This document shows positions 36,661 to 42,895 of a DNA stretch of 45,867 bases, piece after piece. The notes below the pieces were generated by a model. The model had not been told where the DNA came from and did not search any database. It worked only from the letters and a program-made list of their open reading frames with translations. The DNA is from Alicyclobacillus sp. Lineage in GTDB: Bacteria; Bacillota; Bacilli; Alicyclobacillales; Alicyclobacillaceae. Within the stretch, counting starts at the first letter, position 1. Each line of letters begins with the position of its first letter. The stretch is taken from NCBI RefSeq assembly GCF_023511815.1, contig NZ_JAIMAV010000014.1, positions 1 through 45,867 on the forward strand, given 5' to 3'. The translations under genes and the position numbers were made by a program.

Positions 36661-36909
36661 TTTTGCGTGTGAATCTGCGGCGAGGTGGTGAAGCCCCTTC
36701 GGACGAGCCCGATTCTGGGTGATGGCCCGCGGGCGAATGACACCGTCGGTGGGCGATGCATACGATGTGGCGAGGTGCGCGGGCTGGGCGCACCGGCCTG
36801 TGGCGCTGGAACCAGCGGCAGGGTCCCCGCATACGGATGCATCACATCGGGCCTGGGCGAAGGCGCGAGGGACATCGCCCGGACCGAGAAGGAGAGAGGA
36901 GGTTGGCGC
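36661..36909 (+). other. cotE upstream region with weak sporulation promoter candidate
   Basis: With the preceding terminator this leaves 323 bases without a gene (36587-36909). CATACGATG at 36759-36767 resembles a mother-cell (SigE/SigK) -10. CACC at 36741-36744 could be a SigK -35, but the spacing of 14 is short. B. subtilis cotE has mother-cell promoters. The frame of cotE is open back to 36685 without conserved residues. Nothing else was recognised. Confidence 0.3.
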
Positions 36910-37452
36910 ATGGTGCTCTCTGGCAAGGACCTCAGCTACCGCGAGATCGTCGCCAACGCCGTCGTCGGACGCGGGAGCAAGTATTCGCAGACGACGTACA
37001 CCATTCGCCCTGCGAATCGACCCACCACCATCGGTGGTTGCTGGATCATGAACCACACGTACGACGCGGAGCTGGTCGGCGACTACGTCGAGGTGCACGG
37101 CCGCTTTGACATCAACGTGTGGTACTCGTACAACGGCAACTCCGAGACGGCCGTCGCCAAGGACACGGTGTCCTATGTGGAGCAGATTGCGCTGCGTGAC
37201 CTGGACACGACCGCGGACCGCGACAGCCGGGAGGTGCACGTCAAGGTGGTTCAGAATCCCAACTGCCTTGACGCCACGGTCACCGGCAACGGTTCCGAGA
37301 TCCTGGTGCGCTGCGAAAAGGAGCTCGCCGTGGAGGTGGTGGGCCGCACCAAGCTGTGTGTCGTGACGTGCGAGCTGGCTGAGAAGAAAGAAGAGGATTT
37401 CCTTGAGGACGACGAAGAGATGCTCGAGGAAGTGGACGTCGAGGATCGGTGA
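36910..37452 (+). CDS. cotE: Outer spore coat morphogenetic protein CotE
   Basis: The 180-residue product matches CotE in length and sequence (YREIVANAVVGRGSKYSQTTYTI near the start, GCWIMNHTYDAELVGD, DINVWYSYN). It ends in a strongly acidic tail rich in Glu and Asp from about residue 158. CotE builds the layer on which the outer spore coat assembles in the mother cell. ATG 36910 follows AGGAGG by seven bases. It lies before miaB-ricA-mutS as in B. subtilis, but four ligase-like genes are inserted between. The acidic tail is a conceivable carboxylate acceptor for those ligases, which is only a hypothesis. Confidence 0.95.
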   Translation: MVLSGKDLSYREIVANAVVGRGSKYSQTTYTIRPANRPTTIGGCWIMNHTYDAELVGDYVEVHGRFDINVWYSYNGNSETAVAKDTVSYVEQIALRDLDTTADRDSREVHVKVVQNPNCLDATVTGNGSEILVRCEKELAVEVVGRTKLCVVTCELAEKKEEDFLEDDEEMLEEVDVEDR

Positions 37453-37500: not shown

Positions 37501-37524
37501 AGGGGGCGGAAACGCCCCTTTTTT
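37501..37524 (+). terminator. Rho-independent terminator after cotE
   Basis: Six GC pairs GGGGCG / CGCCCC (37503-37508 / 37513-37518) plus a GU and an AT pair, GAAA tetraloop, then a T run. It lies 48 bases after cotE and before the ligase cassette. Confidence 0.82.
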
Positions 37525-37567
37525 GTTCCACACCGGCGGATTCGCGGAGGAGGCGGCGAAGGACTGG

Positions 37568-38722
37568 GTGCGCCTGGGGCTGTATGCCAGCTTGGAACCG
37601 AACGTCGTGCGGCCGTTCGGGGAACAGACGCGGATGTTCGCCGATCTGTGGCGAATCGGGCAGGGCCTCGGGGTGGAGGTCGTCGTCCTCGTCCCCGGAT
37701 ATGCCCGCACGGGCCGGGGCTACCTGTACGATCACGCCGCCGACCGGTGGCGGCCGGACTCGGTCCCGCTGCCTTCCGTGGTCTATCGCCGCTCCGGCTC
37801 GTTTCGGGCGCCCGCGGCCTTGGTGCGGGAGGACCTCGCCCTGTTCCACCGCCGCGGCGTCCTGCACACGCTGCCGCGGGCGGTGAGCAACAAATGGACG
37901 TTCTACCGGTTGCTCACCGCGGATGCCGCGCTGCAGCGGTATGTCCCCTGGTCTCGGCTCGCCAGCGGGCCGCAGGACGTGTATCGCGCGCTCCTCGAGG
38001 TGTCCGATGTGTATGTGAAGCCGCTCGGCGGGGCGCAGGGGATCTCGGTCTATCGCCTGCGGTGGAAGGGAGCCGAAGGGGAGGCGCGCTGGGAGGAGCG
38101 GATCGTGCCGCGGAGAACGGAGCGCATCACCCAGAGGTTCCAACCATTCACCCGGCTGCAGCTGCGGCGCTTCCGGACGCCGGCGGAGTTTCGGGCGTTC
38201 TGGGGGACCACCAAATTGGGACGTTGTCTGGTGCAGGAGACCGTCGAGCTGCCGCGCACGCGGGATGGACGGCCGTTCGATTTCCGCTGGTTGATCCAGT
38301 ACGCCGACGAAGCGCGGGTGCTGGCCCGTGTGGCGCGCGTCGGAAGACCCGAGGCCGTGACCACGAACATCCACACCGGCGGCCAGGCGGTGCCGGCCGA
38401 CACCGCCCTGCGCGGGGCCGGCATTCCGCACCCGGACGGCCTTCTCGGCCAGCTGGACGCGGTGGCGCTTCTGGTCGCGGACAGACTCCGCCGAAAGTAC
38501 GGTCCGTACGCGGAGGTGGGCGTGGATCTCGCGCTTCGCCCCGATCTCACGCCGGTCGTGTTCGAGGTCAATCCCACGCCCGGTAGGCGGATGCTGAGAT
38601 CGCTCGAGCGGCATGTCCGGGAGCTGTCACTGGAGACGCTGATTGAATATGCTATCAGGGCGACGAGGGTCCAATCACCCGGTACAACGCGGAAAGGGGA
38701 ATCCACCGATGAAGGATGGTGA
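37568..38722 (+). CDS. YheC/YheD family ATP-grasp protein 1 (spore coat-associated)
   Basis: The 384-residue product has the YheC/YheD plan: an N-terminal PFGEQTRMF segment, then an ATP-grasp domain with YVKPLGGAQG (149-158), RPFDFRWLIQ (235-244), NIHTGG (267-272), GVDLAL (318-323) and FEVNPTPG (332-339). Lys, Asp, Glu and Asn for ATP and Mg are all present, so it should form an acyl-phosphate and an amide or similar bond. YheC/YheD are described as coat-associated in B. subtilis, with unknown substrate. GTG 37568 is the best guess; TTG 37523 is an alternative but lies in the cotE terminator tail. The 3' end overlaps the next gene by 14 bases. Confidence 0.85.
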   Translation: MRLGLYASLEPNVVRPFGEQTRMFADLWRIGQGLGVEVVVLVPGYARTGRGYLYDHAADRWRPDSVPLPSVVYRRSGSFRAPAALVREDLALFHRRGVLHTLPRAVSNKWTFYRLLTADAALQRYVPWSRLASGPQDVYRALLEVSDVYVKPLGGAQGISVYRLRWKGAEGEARWEERIVPRRTERITQRFQPFTRLQLRRFRTPAEFRAFWGTTKLGRCLVQETVELPRTRDGRPFDFRWLIQYADEARVLARVARVGRPEAVTTNIHTGGQAVPADTALRGAGIPHPDGLLGQLDAVALLVADRLRRKYGPYAEVGVDLALRPDLTPVVFEVNPTPGRRMLRSLERHVRELSLETLIEYAIRATRVQSPGTTRKGESTDEGW

Positions 38723-40085
38723 CCAGATCCTCATTTCGGTATTCCCACACCCCGAGCGGTTGATCCGACTCCATCCTTCCCACGGCCCACTCCTTTCCAC
38801 CCGTTCCGGCCAGTCTCTGTCCGTCATCTGCGGGCTTCGGCGCACCGACGCGTCCGTCTGGTTCGATCCCGCTGTTCCCCCGAACCGGGTCTTTGTGAGC
38901 AGCGGGGTCTCCCGGAGCGTCCTGCTCGGCCTGCCCGTGGAAACGGTGAACGCCCACCTTCAGGAGGGCACGGTGCACGTGGGTCCCACCATCGGGATCC
39001 TGTGCAATCCCGTGTGGAACGAGAAACGACACACCCTGCGTTGGACAAAGCAGGTCCCCGCGCTGGAGAAGCTGGTTCAAGCCGGGCAGCGCCTGGGTGC
39101 CTTCGTATACGTGTTCGGCATTCAGGACGTGGATTTCAATCGGGGGACCGTTCTCGGCTACGTGTTTCGCAACGGCGCGTGGCGGCCCGCTCAACTGCCG
39201 CTGCCGGATTCGATCTACGACCAGGTGGTGTCCCGGCGGTTGGAGCGGGACAAGAAGTATCAGGCCAAACGGGCGAGATTGAGCAAAATGTACGCCAACC
39301 GCATCTTCAACGACGGCTTCTTCGACAAATGGAAGGTGCACGAGTGGCTCTGGCAGGACCGTCAAACCCGGAATCTGGTCCCGTATTCGGAACGATTCAC
39401 GACGGAGGGCCAGGCCATCGCGTTTATAAAACGGCATGCCGTCACTTTCATCAAACCGGTGCACGGCAGCCTTGGGGTCGGCATCGTCCGGGTCACCCGG
39501 GAGGCGGATGGTTCGTACCGTTACGAGGTTCGCCACCGCACCGGGCGGACCCAGAACCGTGCCGCCACCGCGGAGGCGGTGGTGGAAGCGCTCCGGCGCC
39601 GGTTGCGCCAATCCCCGCATCTGTTGCAGCAGGGCATTCCGGTGGCGCGTTACCGGGAGCGGCCGTTCGACATCCGGATCGTCCTGCAGAGGGACGGATC
39701 CGGGGAGTGGAAGCGGACGAAGATGTTCGCCCGGGTGGCCAGGTCTGGGGAATTCACCGCGAACCTCGCCAGCGGGGGCGAGGCGCTGCCCGTCGACGCG
39801 GTGCTCCGTGAGGCGTTTTCGGCCCCGGAGCGCCGGCGCCGGGCCAGGCGTCTCATCCGCAGAGCCGCTTCCCTGGTCGCCGCCGCGATCGAACAGCAGT
39901 GCGGAAAGCCATTGGGCGAACTGGGGGTGGATCTGGCCGTCGACGAATCCGGATCGGTTTGGGTCCTTGAGGTGAATTCCAAGCCCTGGAAAGCGTCTTC
40001 CACCGACAAAGGGCGGCAGGACCTGGTGGACCTGTCCTTCCTCCGCCCGATGGAGTACGCCATCCGGCTGGCTCAAGAGCGCTAG
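38709..40085 (+). CDS. YheC/YheD family ATP-grasp protein 2
   Basis: The 458-residue product has an extra N-terminal domain of about 92 residues before the GPTIGILCNP segment that starts the pre-ATP-grasp region, as in YheD. The ATP-grasp motifs are intact: FIKPVHGSLGVGI (247-259), RPFDIRIVLQ (318-327), NLASGG (352-357), GVDLAV (406-411) and LEVNSKPW (420-427). ATG 38709 follows GGAAAGGGGA and overlaps the previous gene, so the two are translationally coupled. The linker near residues 175-200 is strongly basic. It is predicted to be a cytoplasmic ligase of the mother cell, and its substrate is unknown. Confidence 0.88.
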   Translation: MKDGDQILISVFPHPERLIRLHPSHGPLLSTRSGQSLSVICGLRRTDASVWFDPAVPPNRVFVSSGVSRSVLLGLPVETVNAHLQEGTVHVGPTIGILCNPVWNEKRHTLRWTKQVPALEKLVQAGQRLGAFVYVFGIQDVDFNRGTVLGYVFRNGAWRPAQLPLPDSIYDQVVSRRLERDKKYQAKRARLSKMYANRIFNDGFFDKWKVHEWLWQDRQTRNLVPYSERFTTEGQAIAFIKRHAVTFIKPVHGSLGVGIVRVTREADGSYRYEVRHRTGRTQNRAATAEAVVEALRRRLRQSPHLLQQGIPVARYRERPFDIRIVLQRDGSGEWKRTKMFARVARSGEFTANLASGGEALPVDAVLREAFSAPERRRRARRLIRRAASLVAAAIEQQCGKPLGELGVDLAVDESGSVWVLEVNSKPWKASSTDKGRQDLVDLSFLRPMEYAIRLAQER

Positions 40086-40111
40086 TCGCCGGCAGGAAAG
40101 GAGCGTTGGCA

Positions 40112-41572
40112 ATGGCCTACTATCTGCTGCACGCCGGGCAGCCGTCCGCCCAACGACTGGTGCGCCGGGTCGCGCGGCTGCGCGAGTACACGTCCGTCTC
40201 CGCGGTCAACGCGGGGGACGCGGTGATCCGCTGGGGGGATTCGGCGGAGTCAGACCCCCCCATCGGCCGGGTGCTCAACCCGCAGAACGCGGTGGTGCGG
40301 ACACGGTCAAGACCGGCGATGGCGAGGTTCCTGCGGCGCGTCGGAATTCGGGTGTACAGCCGCGACAAGTCGAACGAGAACACGACGCTTCTGCGTCAGT
40401 ATCGGATTCCGGTGTTCGATCTCAAACCGCTGGCCTGTTTCCGTTCGGACCGGGCGCCGGTTTGGCTCAATCAACGTCTCCAACAGGTTCAATCCTCGTT
40501 TCGGGAGGTCCCGTTGGACGAGGAAAAGGTCACCGCGCGCGTTTTGCAGTTGGCATGCCGAGCGCTGCACGCCCTCGGGCTGGATCACGGCATGGTCAGC
40601 ATCGGCATGGCGCCCAAGGGCGTCCTGTACGTGATCGACGTGACGCCGGCTCCGGTCCTGCGCGGGCGGCTGTTGGATCTGTTCGGCCAGGCCGTCGAAC
40701 AGTACATCGAGCGCGAGGAACAACCGGCCGCCGTGCAAGGGAATGTGCTGCTCGGGACGGACGTGGAGCTGATGTTGCGCAATGCCGCAGGCAAGATGGT
40801 CCTGGCCAGCCGGTTCTTTTCGCGCAAGGGCCGTGTCGGCTGCGACGACCGCAGCGTACAGTTCGACGGGCAGCGGCTGCCGCTGATGGAGCTGCGCCCG
40901 GACCCGGACGCGGACCCGTTGCGATTGGTCGCCAATCTCCGGGCGGTGATGGTCGAGGCCTCATCGCGCATCGGGGTGCCCGGGATTCAGTGGGTGGCGG
41001 GCAGCATGCCGTTTCGGCCGTATTGCACCGGGGGGCACATCCATTTTTCAAACGTGGCCTTCTCCAGTCACTTTGTGCGCGTCCTCGACAACTACCTGGG
41101 GTTGCCGCTGATGATGGTCGAGGACCCGAGGACGAGCCGGTTGCGCAGGCCGCGCTACGGATTTCTGGGAGACATTCGCCACAAGGACCACGGTGGGTTT
41201 GAATACCGGACCCCGGCCAGCTTCGTCGTCAGTCCGGAGGTGACCACGGCCGCCTTTTGCATCGCCCATCTGCTGGCCCATCATCACCGGGAACTGCCGG
41301 TGTTCGACCTTTATGAAGAAAACCTTCAGCTGGCTTTCTACCAAGCCCGCAAGGAGGTTTTGCTGCCGATTGTGGAGCGCAACTACGCCATCCTGCAGAA
41401 GGTGCCCGGATTCGACCGGTACCGGGAACAGATTCAACCGCTGTTCGACATGATCTTTTCCGGACGGATCTGGGATGAGTCGGTGGACGTTCGCACCGCG
41501 TGGGGCATCCCCGCAAGGCGGCGGCAGGCGGCCGGCAGGGCGGGCGGGCAGCGTTCTCTGGCCAATGCGTGA
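40112..41572 (+). CDS. Amidoligase (COOH-NH2 ligase type 2) fused to a degenerate ATP-grasp remnant
   Basis: The 486-residue product has two parts. Residues 1-200 look like a shrunken ATP-grasp: the final core reads VSIGM...VIDVT (162-178), where intact neighbours have VDLAL...FEVN, and the Lys/Gly-rich ATP loop is missing. Residues 213-400 match the glutamine-synthetase-fold amidoligase family (Pfam COOH-NH2 ligase type 2): GTDVEL (215-220), ELRPDP (260-265), GGHIHFS (307-313) and GFEYRTPAS (362-370). The GS-fold part probably carries the activity, joining a carboxylate to an amine. ATG 40112 follows AGGAAAGGAG with 8 bases. The C-terminal 25 residues are basic. Confidence 0.85.
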   Translation: MAYYLLHAGQPSAQRLVRRVARLREYTSVSAVNAGDAVIRWGDSAESDPPIGRVLNPQNAVVRTRSRPAMARFLRRVGIRVYSRDKSNENTTLLRQYRIPVFDLKPLACFRSDRAPVWLNQRLQQVQSSFREVPLDEEKVTARVLQLACRALHALGLDHGMVSIGMAPKGVLYVIDVTPAPVLRGRLLDLFGQAVEQYIEREEQPAAVQGNVLLGTDVELMLRNAAGKMVLASRFFSRKGRVGCDDRSVQFDGQRLPLMELRPDPDADPLRLVANLRAVMVEASSRIGVPGIQWVAGSMPFRPYCTGGHIHFSNVAFSSHFVRVLDNYLGLPLMMVEDPRTSRLRRPRYGFLGDIRHKDHGGFEYRTPASFVVSPEVTTAAFCIAHLLAHHHRELPVFDLYEENLQLAFYQARKEVLLPIVERNYAILQKVPGFDRYREQIQPLFDMIFSGRIWDESVDVRTAWGIPARRRQAAGRAGGQRSLANA

Positions 41573-41620
41573 CGGGATGCGGCGCCGAGGACACCGACGC
41601 CAAGACGGGAGGTTGACGAC

Positions 41621-42895
41621 GTGAGGACAGCGACGAACGGAGAGCTCATCTGGGTGCACGCCGACGGGCGAGTGCGGGTGGCGCTTCACGTGCCATCGCT
41701 CACCAAACTTCGCACCGCGCCCCAAACCGCCCGCGTGGCCGGGGTGTGGGTTCCGGTGATGCACAGGGTGCCCCCGCGGGGGGTGTTGTACCGGCACCCC
41801 GTTCGGGTCGTGGAACGCGACGGCGAATGGACGGCCGGTCCGGTGTTCGCCATCCTGGCGGCGGCCGGAGGACACCCGTTTCGCGGCGATCGCGCGGATT
41901 TCCGGGCCATCACGGCGGCCGGCCGCGCCCGGCGTGCGTTCGTCTATGTCCTCCCGACCGACGGGATTCGTGAGGGCGGTTGGTGGAAGGGATTTGTCCG
42001 GATTGGCCCCGGCCGTTGGCTGGCCCTGCCCTGTCCGGCGCCGCAGGCGGTGTACAATCGGATCCCCAACCGCAAGCTGGAGCGGCTTCCCGTATCTCAG
42101 CGCGCCAAGCAGATGCTGTCCGAACAGGGGATTCCGATGTTCAACCCGGGGTACTTCGACAAGGCGGTGATCTATGAGATCATCCAACGCGCCGGATTGA
42201 GCCGGTACCTCCCGGAGTCCGCCACCGATCTTGACGCGGCGACCCTCCACCAGATGCTCCAGCGCCATGACGCGGTGTATTTGAAACCGGTCGGTGGCAG
42301 CATCGGCCACGGCATCCTGCGCATCGACCGCCAGGGCAGGGGATTTCGCGTCGCGGTGCTGAAGCATCGGCGCTGCGAGGTCCACCTGGCCGCCGGCTGG
42401 CCCCAGGCCTGGCGCCTGGTGTGCCGCCATCGCCTGCGCAGCCGGTACGTGGTGCAGGCGGCGGTGCCGCTCATCCGGCATCAGGGGCATCCGTGTGATT
42501 TTCGTGTGCTGTTGCAGAAACGCGACGGGGCGTGGGAGGTCGTCGGCAAAGGGGTGCGCGTGGCGGGGCGCAACGCCATCACCACCCATGTGCCCAACGG
42601 TGGCCACATCGCCCGTGCGGCGGAGGTGCTCGAGGAGGTGTTCGGCGAGCAAGGGGACGACGTTCATCAGTCGGTGGATGAGATGGCCCTCCAGTGCGCC
42701 CGTGCCATCGACGCACACTACGCCCACCGGCTCGGCGAGATGTCGATGGATATCGGGGTGGACGCGGATGGACACCCTTGGTTTTTCGAAGCCAACGCGA
42801 AGCCCATGAAATTTGACGAGCCGGAGATCCGGCAACGGTCCCTGGCGGGTGTCCTGGACCAGCTCGAGGCGCTGGCCCGGCGGGAAGCCCGGTAG
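41621..42895 (+). CDS. YheC/YheD family ATP-grasp protein 3
   Basis: The 424-residue product has an N-terminal domain of about 100 residues, then an ATP-grasp with YLKPVGGSIGHGI (220-232), HPCDFRVLLQ (290-299), VPNGGH (324-329), SMDIGV (375-380) and FFEANAKPM (388-396). The metal- and ATP-binding residues are present. It is closer in layout to protein 2 than to protein 1. The GTG start follows a GGGAGG site. It is the last gene of the cassette before miaB. There are 48 bases after the amidoligase gene and no terminator between them, so joint transcription is likely. Confidence 0.87.
   Translation: MRTATNGELIWVHADGRVRVALHVPSLTKLRTAPQTARVAGVWVPVMHRVPPRGVLYRHPVRVVERDGEWTAGPVFAILAAAGGHPFRGDRADFRAITAAGRARRAFVYVLPTDGIREGGWWKGFVRIGPGRWLALPCPAPQAVYNRIPNRKLERLPVSQRAKQMLSEQGIPMFNPGYFDKAVIYEIIQRAGLSRYLPESATDLDAATLHQMLQRHDAVYLKPVGGSIGHGILRIDRQGRGFRVAVLKHRRCEVHLAAGWPQAWRLVCRHRLRSRYVVQAAVPLIRHQGHPCDFRVLLQKRDGAWEVVGKGVRVAGRNAITTHVPNGGHIARAAEVLEEVFGEQGDDVHQSVDEMALQCARAIDAHYAHRLGEMSMDIGVDADGHPWFFEANAKPMKFDEPEIRQRSLAGVLDQLEALARREAR

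Follow-up and report, generated by a model that had tools for sequence, protein, structure and literature searches.

Several ATP-dependent ligase families, among them the YheC/YheD proteins (YheC/D below) and the COOH-NH2 ligases, have folds that make amide bonds. Iyer and colleagues reportedly defined in 2009 the families of amidoligases with ATP-grasp, glutamine synthetase (GS)-like and GNAT domains, and are said to have predicted roles for them in the spore wall or the capsule, together with linked ligases. In the excerpt available to us, a later paper cites this work for linked genes of an ATP-grasp protein and a COOH-NH2 ligase (PMC4431377). The accessible text on Bacillus subtilis describes YheD as forming a shell on the spore and associating strongly with itself, and gives YheC/D as coat-associated proteins whose substrate is not established (PMC7911427); an excerpt of another study places yheC and yheD in the sigma-E regulon and reports that SpoIIID raises their expression (PMC517825). 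In this work, we will focus on a block of four genes, named A to D, that directly follows cotE in a stretch of 45,867 nucleotides from Alicyclobacillus sp. (contig NZ_JAIMAV010000014.1, hereafter the window). We propose, with a probability of about 60%, that this block is an ancient amide-ligation module of the spore coat, in which ligases of the mother cell would modify or cross-link a coat component. The genes are the following.

36910-37452, forward strand: cotE, outer-coat morphogenetic protein of 180 amino acids with an acidic tail (PF10628; start ATG)
37568-38722, forward strand: gene A, YheC/D-type ATP-grasp (PF14398, 142.6 bits; start GTG)
38709-40085, forward strand: gene B, YheC/D-type ATP-grasp (PF14398, 249.6 bits; start ATG)
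40112-41572, forward strand: gene C, COOH-NH2 ligase with a degenerate ATP-grasp in front (PF14395, 329.8 bits; start ATG)
41621-42895, forward strand: gene D, YheC/D-type ATP-grasp (PF14398, 214.7 bits; start GTG)

An earlier reading of this DNA, made from the letters only and called here the original prediction, had described three YheC/D-type ATP-grasps and one COOH-NH2 ligase lying in one direction after cotE. Pfam and the reading frames bear this out, and its coordinates, the overlap of 14 bases between A and B and the gaps of 26 (B to C) and 48 bases (C to D) proved exact when the frames were read again. The family matches are far above the respective cut-offs (26.8 bits for PF14398, 25 for PF14395 and 25 for PF10628), with E-values of 1.8e-41 for A, 3.7e-74 for B, 1.2e-98 for C and 1.7e-63 for D, and of 2.1e-58 for CotE (197.2 bits). 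In NCBIfam, CotE, A, C and D have no match and B has only matches far below the cut-offs. The gene miaB lies 3' of D (TIGR01574, 559.7 bits).

The linkage of these enzymes to cotE and to each other, as claimed originally, is deeply conserved. Order, class and phylum stand here for Alicyclobacillales, Bacilli and Bacillota, as defined in GTDB. In the order, PF14395 and CotE are each present in 57 of 59 genomes, and these are the same 57; the other two genomes are 65% and 73% complete. The original prediction had called for a search for the same gene order in homologous genomes, and cotE, A, B, C and D do follow one another on one strand at 55 of the 57 ligase-bearing loci of the order, the remaining two being contig ends (L048, which is without cotE, and L065, which stops within C). 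Irregularities among the 55 concern D, which is split in L049 and short in L055, C, which is read as two overlapping frames in L018, and cotE, which is interrupted by an element in four loci (L019, L022, L023, L029). An extra copy of D is present in 15 of the 16 loci that belong to the order's second family. A scan of a genome collection with an alignment of C gave 542 relatives, of which we consider the best 80, an uneven sample that partly overlaps the other genomes used. In 79 of these 80, C is found downstream of cotE on the same strand, the exception (L116) being a contig end. ATP-grasp genes lie between cotE (or the contig end) and C in 48 of the 80, belonging to Alicyclobacillus, Tumebacillus, Kyrpidia, Ferroacidibacillus, Sulfoacidibacillus, bins and one bin labelled Thermincola, and C has no ATP-grasp gene before it in the other 32 (Paenibacillus, Brevibacillus, Thermoactinomyces and kin, Ammoniphilus and others). 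At the level of the class, an even sample of 398 genomes contains C in 203, CotE in 269 and YheC/D in 262. All 203 genomes with C also have CotE and YheC/D, and C occurs in none of the 129 genomes without CotE; the Fisher p of 3e-55 that goes with this co-occurrence overstates the evidence, because the genomes share one tree. Separation of the two genes was seen in G190, where one contig carries C and cotE at a large distance from each other (L079, L104), and in G394, which has C, though not near its cotE (L097).

The association also extends beyond the class. Of 199 genomes sampled across the phylum, 26 contain C, and 23 of these belong to other classes; YheC/D is present in every one of the 23, and 15 of them have a CotE match (best E 4e-44). 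We read 20 loci from 17 of these 23 genomes: YheC/D is near C or fused to it in 18, cotE is present in 11 (on the opposite strand in two), and in L243, L252, L255 and L257 cotE, four ATP-grasp genes and C stand in a row. C accompanies YheC/D even more steadily than CotE. The part of the 2012 survey by Galperin et al. that was accessible reports that no CotE was seen in clostridia (PMC3533761), and our matches outside the class go beyond that part of the survey. CotE-family genes outside the class were observed beside the same enzymes in L253, L262, L250, L243, L252 and others, and paired CotE-family genes were observed in G428, G474, G512, G545, G574 and G598.

This distribution bears on the age of the block, which the original prediction had described as inserted between cotE and miaB. 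Such wording presumes that the arrangement of B. subtilis is the original one. We take B. subtilis to be devoid of such genes after cotE, as loci without C (L105-L108) also suggest, and PF14395 had no match in our B. subtilis control. The block, whole or in part, is also found in other classes of the phylum; for this reason we rejected an insertion into a locus like that of B. subtilis, and this part of the claim is not supported. To judge from these comparisons, the block seems old and looks like an ancient part of spore-coat building, for which loss or relocation in Bacillaceae-type genomes would be a simpler history than insertion in Alicyclobacillus.

The three ATP-grasp copies had been called divergent, and this description holds. 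In a tree of 115 rows, made with a quick method without bootstrap and after dropping rows shorter than 330 amino acids, many of the remaining rows being of odd composition, A forms one clade (18 rows; support of 94 in the Shimodaira-Hasegawa-like approximate likelihood ratio test, SH-aLRT), B forms another (18 rows, SH-aLRT 82), and the D of Alicyclobacillaceae groups with the D2 of other lineages (98*). Free-standing tandem copies of YheC/D from eight genomes fall beside or among these subtype groups. The tree supports old and separate ATP-grasp subtypes, which would hence have separate tasks. The ATP-grasp motifs, said to be intact in the original prediction, are so with one reservation. The E-x-N pair of the ATP-grasp core is present in A, B and D of the window, and across 18 rows for each subtype it is invariant in B (E423/N425, numbered from codon 38703) and in D (E390/N392); in A, N335 is invariant and its E is not. 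More generally, the core Lys, Arg, Asp, Glu and Asn are invariant in B and D and largely so in A. A sequence search of solved structures gave no relative of B. Two genomes join C and a YheC/D domain in one protein: L100:6347-9064 is a single frame of 906 amino acids, with PF14395 at 219-468 and PF14398 at 659-898, and L245 is a single frame of 940 amino acids. These fusions argue for a shared pathway. As a separate observation, the window genome has four further YheC/D copies (two in C77, one in C152 and one in C111), which in the tree sit on long branches and belong to none of the groups of A, B and D.

Gene C itself is composed of two domains, with residue numbers running from codon 40106.

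40112-40720, forward strand: front half of C, residues 3-205, shortened RimK-like ATP-grasp fold (structure match to RimK 5zk6)
40739-41506, forward strand: back half of C, residues 212-467, GS-fold ligase domain (structure match to 1tt4)

The structure of the protein was predicted with a predicted local distance difference test score (pLDDT) of 90.4 and a predicted template modelling score (pTM) of 0.90. For the back half, to which the PF14395 match belongs over the whole length of its model (1-254 of 254), the closest folds are 1tt4 (Z 17.1, 238 residues aligned, root-mean-square deviation (rmsd) 3.0), YbdK 1r8g (Z 16.5, 241 aligned, rmsd 3.2), PafA 4bjr (Z 15.2, 249 aligned, rmsd 3.5) and Dop 4b0r (Z 15.2, 243 aligned, rmsd 3.6). 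The front half aligns with the 291-residue chain of RimK 5zk6 (Z 16.5, 191 aligned, rmsd 3.3), and it is about 90 residues shorter than RimK, short of a full-length ATP-grasp. In a profile alignment, this half and B coincide at their ends, where D-x-T faces the E-x-N of B, at a weak probability of 55, and against the subtype profiles the front half likewise gives weak probabilities of 75 (A), 55 (B) and 1 (D). Since these profile matches are weak, its RimK-like fold rests on the structure match. The sequence of C searched against solved structures gave one weak and partial match (E 0.057), and a model of the front half alone, built without an alignment, reached a pLDDT of 37.2 and was not used. 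In 35 diverse sequences of C, 38 columns are invariant, of which 37 are in or beside the back half; D219, E221, E262, R264, H311, H313, R358, E366 and R368 are among the invariant residues. Because of this concentration, we read the back half as the predicted active ligase domain. The front half, on the strength of the model, is probably a degenerate ATP-grasp that would serve for substrate binding.

The same residues speak to the idea that YheC/D and C are mainly structural or scaffold proteins of the coat, their enzyme folds being relics. The strong self-association and the shell of B. subtilis YheD, in the available text (PMC7911427), would suit such proteins, as would the ATP-grasp half of C, which by the weak profile match seems to have lost motif residues, and the pace at which A and D evolve. 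Indeed, compared with Alicyclobacillus macrosporangiidus, the nearest named relative by C (78%; the window genome's own records were perhaps left out), the ratio of nonsynonymous to synonymous substitution rates is 0.22 for A, 0.14 for B, 0.14 for C and 0.21 for D, as against 0.03 for cotE and 0.08 for miaB, so that A and D evolve faster than miaB and cotE. By this ratio, all four enzyme genes are under purifying selection. The invariance of the ATP-grasp core in B and D, which largely extends to A, and the 37 columns that the back half of C keeps in diverse sequences speak against relics, and we consider a purely structural role improbable.

Another possibility is that the enzymes make a small soluble peptide or polyamide, such as a metabolite or a capsule-like precursor, to be incorporated afterwards into the coat or the cortex; no protein would then be modified, and cotE would be a merely co-regulated neighbour. 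Small-molecule ligases (YbdK, glutamate-cysteine ligase, LysX/ArgX) are indeed among the folds near C, YheC/D accompanies C even where a CotE match is absent, and several ATP-grasp subtypes would suit successive additions. Against this stand the structural coat gene that adjoins C in 79 of the best 80 of 542 relatives, the retention of YheD at the spore surface in B. subtilis, as described in the accessible part of the source (PMC7911427), and the content of the block in the window, which includes no transporter, carrier or amino-acid gene. A soluble product thus deserves to be kept in mind, and seems to us somewhat doubtful.

The timing of expression is connected to a motif that precedes cotE.

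36739-36766, forward strand: promoter-like motif before cotE, GACA - 16 nt - CATACGAT (sigma-E/K-like)

Of the 42 order loci that could be tested, 23 have CATACGAT upstream of cotE, as compared with 0.5% of shuffles, in a test in which 14 of 56 loci were dropped, their cotE start not being found by pattern, and in which related sequences are counted repeatedly. In 21 of these 23 loci, an AC box stands 15-19 nt before CATACGAT. This motif resembles sigma-E/K promoters. A looser sigma-K pattern reaches 8 of 10 positions in 39 of 39 upstream regions, against 26% of shuffles, and the sigma-E consensus scores hardly above shuffles (10.2 against 9.8 of 15).

The amide-ligation module that we favour can then be described as follows. 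During sporulation, the mother cell would make CotE and the four ATP-dependent ligases, the latter at a lower level or from a separate start. The ATP-grasps A, B and D would each activate a carboxylate as an acyl-phosphate and then join it to an amine, and C would carry out the same type of reaction in its GS-fold active site, its own ATP-grasp half probably only binding substrate. By forming amide bonds, these ligases would together cross-link a coat component or modify it, CotE being the scaffold or a possible acceptor. The mother-cell timing is suggested by the motif before cotE, the amide chemistry by fold and family, and the coat target by the neighbourhood and by the place of YheD in the coat of B. 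subtilis. We favour ligases that are made in the mother cell and act at the coat because of the YheD shell (PMC7911427) and the control by sigma-E and SpoIIID (PMC517825), as given in the accessible parts of these two sources.

Several observations weigh against this module. The first concerns joint expression, since a terminator-like hairpin often parts cotE from the enzymes.

37501-37526, forward strand: terminator-like hairpin with a T run, between cotE and A (hairpin scan)

In the window alone, terminator-like sites are unremarkable (6, against 5.3 +- 2.7 in shuffles). Across loci, cotE is followed by such a hairpin at 29 of the 52 order loci, where shuffles give 4.4%. The share is 22 of 32 for loci with C directly behind cotE (taken from the best 80 of the 542 relatives) and 16 of 24 for those labelled as lacking C, and the shuffle rate over the three groups of loci is 1-4%. 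Moreover, CATACGAT is found in the 160 nt after cotE at none of 56 order loci. The hairpin fits abundant CotE with little enzyme made by read-through, or separate starts, and the plain cotE operon that we considered is weakened by it. The other points are that 66 class genomes have CotE without C, so that a coat can be built without this ligase; that 8 of the 23 C-bearing genomes outside the class show no CotE match; that the co-occurrence counts are not independent, as the genomes share one tree; and that in the two-hybrid data of the text available, YheD bound itself and none of the other coat proteins tested (PMC7911427). The hairpins and the genomes with C and without a CotE match could also suggest that the block owes its place next to cotE to an inherited gene order and serves a different process. 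We hold such an incidental neighbourhood to be highly improbable: the order around cotE varies, miaB being upstream or downstream of it depending on the lineage, yet C remains beside cotE, and none of the 129 class genomes that lack CotE has C. The coat role inferred in the original prediction is partly supported, by the conserved linkage, the subtypes, the catalytic-type residues and the promoter motif of cotE; its idea of an insertion is not supported, and a plain cotE operon has become doubtful.

CotE is a candidate acceptor of the ligation, because it is the sole non-enzyme of the block. Its Lys84 (window 37159-37161) is shared by 116 of the 132 CotE rows that come from C-bearing genomes and by none of the 24 that come from genomes lacking C; the state of C changes only twice on the CotE tree, and kinship alone can explain the pattern. 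With only two independent pairs on the tree, we rejected Lys84 as a proof of the acceptor. The acidic tail of CotE was likewise rejected as a marker of the ligase: its acidic share is 0.46 where C is present (123 rows) and 0.45 where the rows were labelled as without it (26 rows), the tail being cut roughly and two of the 26 rows (L097, L104) coming from genomes with C elsewhere. A further contrast concerns SpoVID, whose model (TIGR02907) is matched above its cut-off by all 24 genomes that lack C and by none of the 52 that have it. This set of 76 hand-chosen genomes comprises 32 taken as block-bearing (four of them, G095, G097, G107 and G226, assigned by family only), 20 in which C adjoins cotE and 24 without C. 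Weaker and sometimes full-length SpoVID matches occur in several genomes that have only cotE and C, and in the block-bearing genomes the matches, among the rows listed, are mostly to the LysM end. As the model was probably built on Bacillus-like proteins, the contrast is partly one of divergence, and kinship confounds it as it does that of Lys84. The accessible part of Galperin et al. 2012 gives A. acidocaldarius and K. tusciae as being without SafA and "SpoIVD", which we take to mean SpoVID (PMC3533761). One could imagine an enzyme-welded ancestral coat, whose outer layer is fixed by isopeptide or peptide links that C and YheC/D form on CotE, at Lys84 or in the acidic tail, with Bacillaceae-type lineages losing C once they relied on encasement by SpoVID; we regard this scenario as unlikely.

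The cotE gene shows a peculiarity of its own in some Alicyclobacillus. At L019, L022, L023 and L029, an element of about 3-5 kb interrupts it at a single site, in its TKLC codons; the same genomes include L123 (A. suci) and L124 (A. fastidiosus). In all four loci, the missing 3' end of cotE is found on the far side of the element, and joining the flanks in L029 restores a full CotE frame. A large serine recombinase lies at the left end of the element in the three loci scanned with Pfam (L124, L029, L019). The element resembles the gene-intervening elements known from sigK or gerE. The paper on the gerE element mentions neither cotE nor Alicyclobacillus, and a literature search for an intervening element in Alicyclobacillus cotE gave nothing relevant.

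How does the block compare with what has been described? A literature search for cotE linked to a ligase or to YheC/D returned no description of it, most subscription papers lying outside the scope of this search. The present analysis adds how deeply the block and its gene order are conserved, how strictly C occurs together with CotE and YheC/D in the class sample, the fusion of C with YheC/D in two genomes, the degenerate ATP-grasp half of C and the hairpin that follows cotE. The front half of C shares its fold with RimK, ArgX/LysX and the graspetide ligases (PsnB), to which A, B and D are alike by family. In contrast to RimK, it seems to be without the E-x-N pair, according to the weak profile match. 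As for a graspetide cluster, a precursor gene fits none of the spacings between the enzymes (-14, 26 and 48), the rest of the genome not having been searched. YbdK, PafA and Dop have folds like that of the back half of C, at low identity (11-17%), and the likeness of C to PafA and Dop is one of fold. Closer is the phage phiEco32-like COOH-NH2 ligase type 2, which belongs to the same family (PF14395); unlike it, C has an extra, degenerate ATP-grasp half, adjoins cotE and YheC/D, and is chromosomal. Finally, A, B and D are of the same family as B. subtilis YheC/YheD (PF14398), with the difference that here the YheC/D genes flank a COOH-NH2 ligase next to cotE. CotE, the YheC/D subtypes and a GS-fold ligase are conserved in many spore-formers, and the ligase is missing from the B. 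subtilis model; this suggests that B. subtilis is a reduced model of coat making, and that there is coat chemistry still to be found in its relatives.

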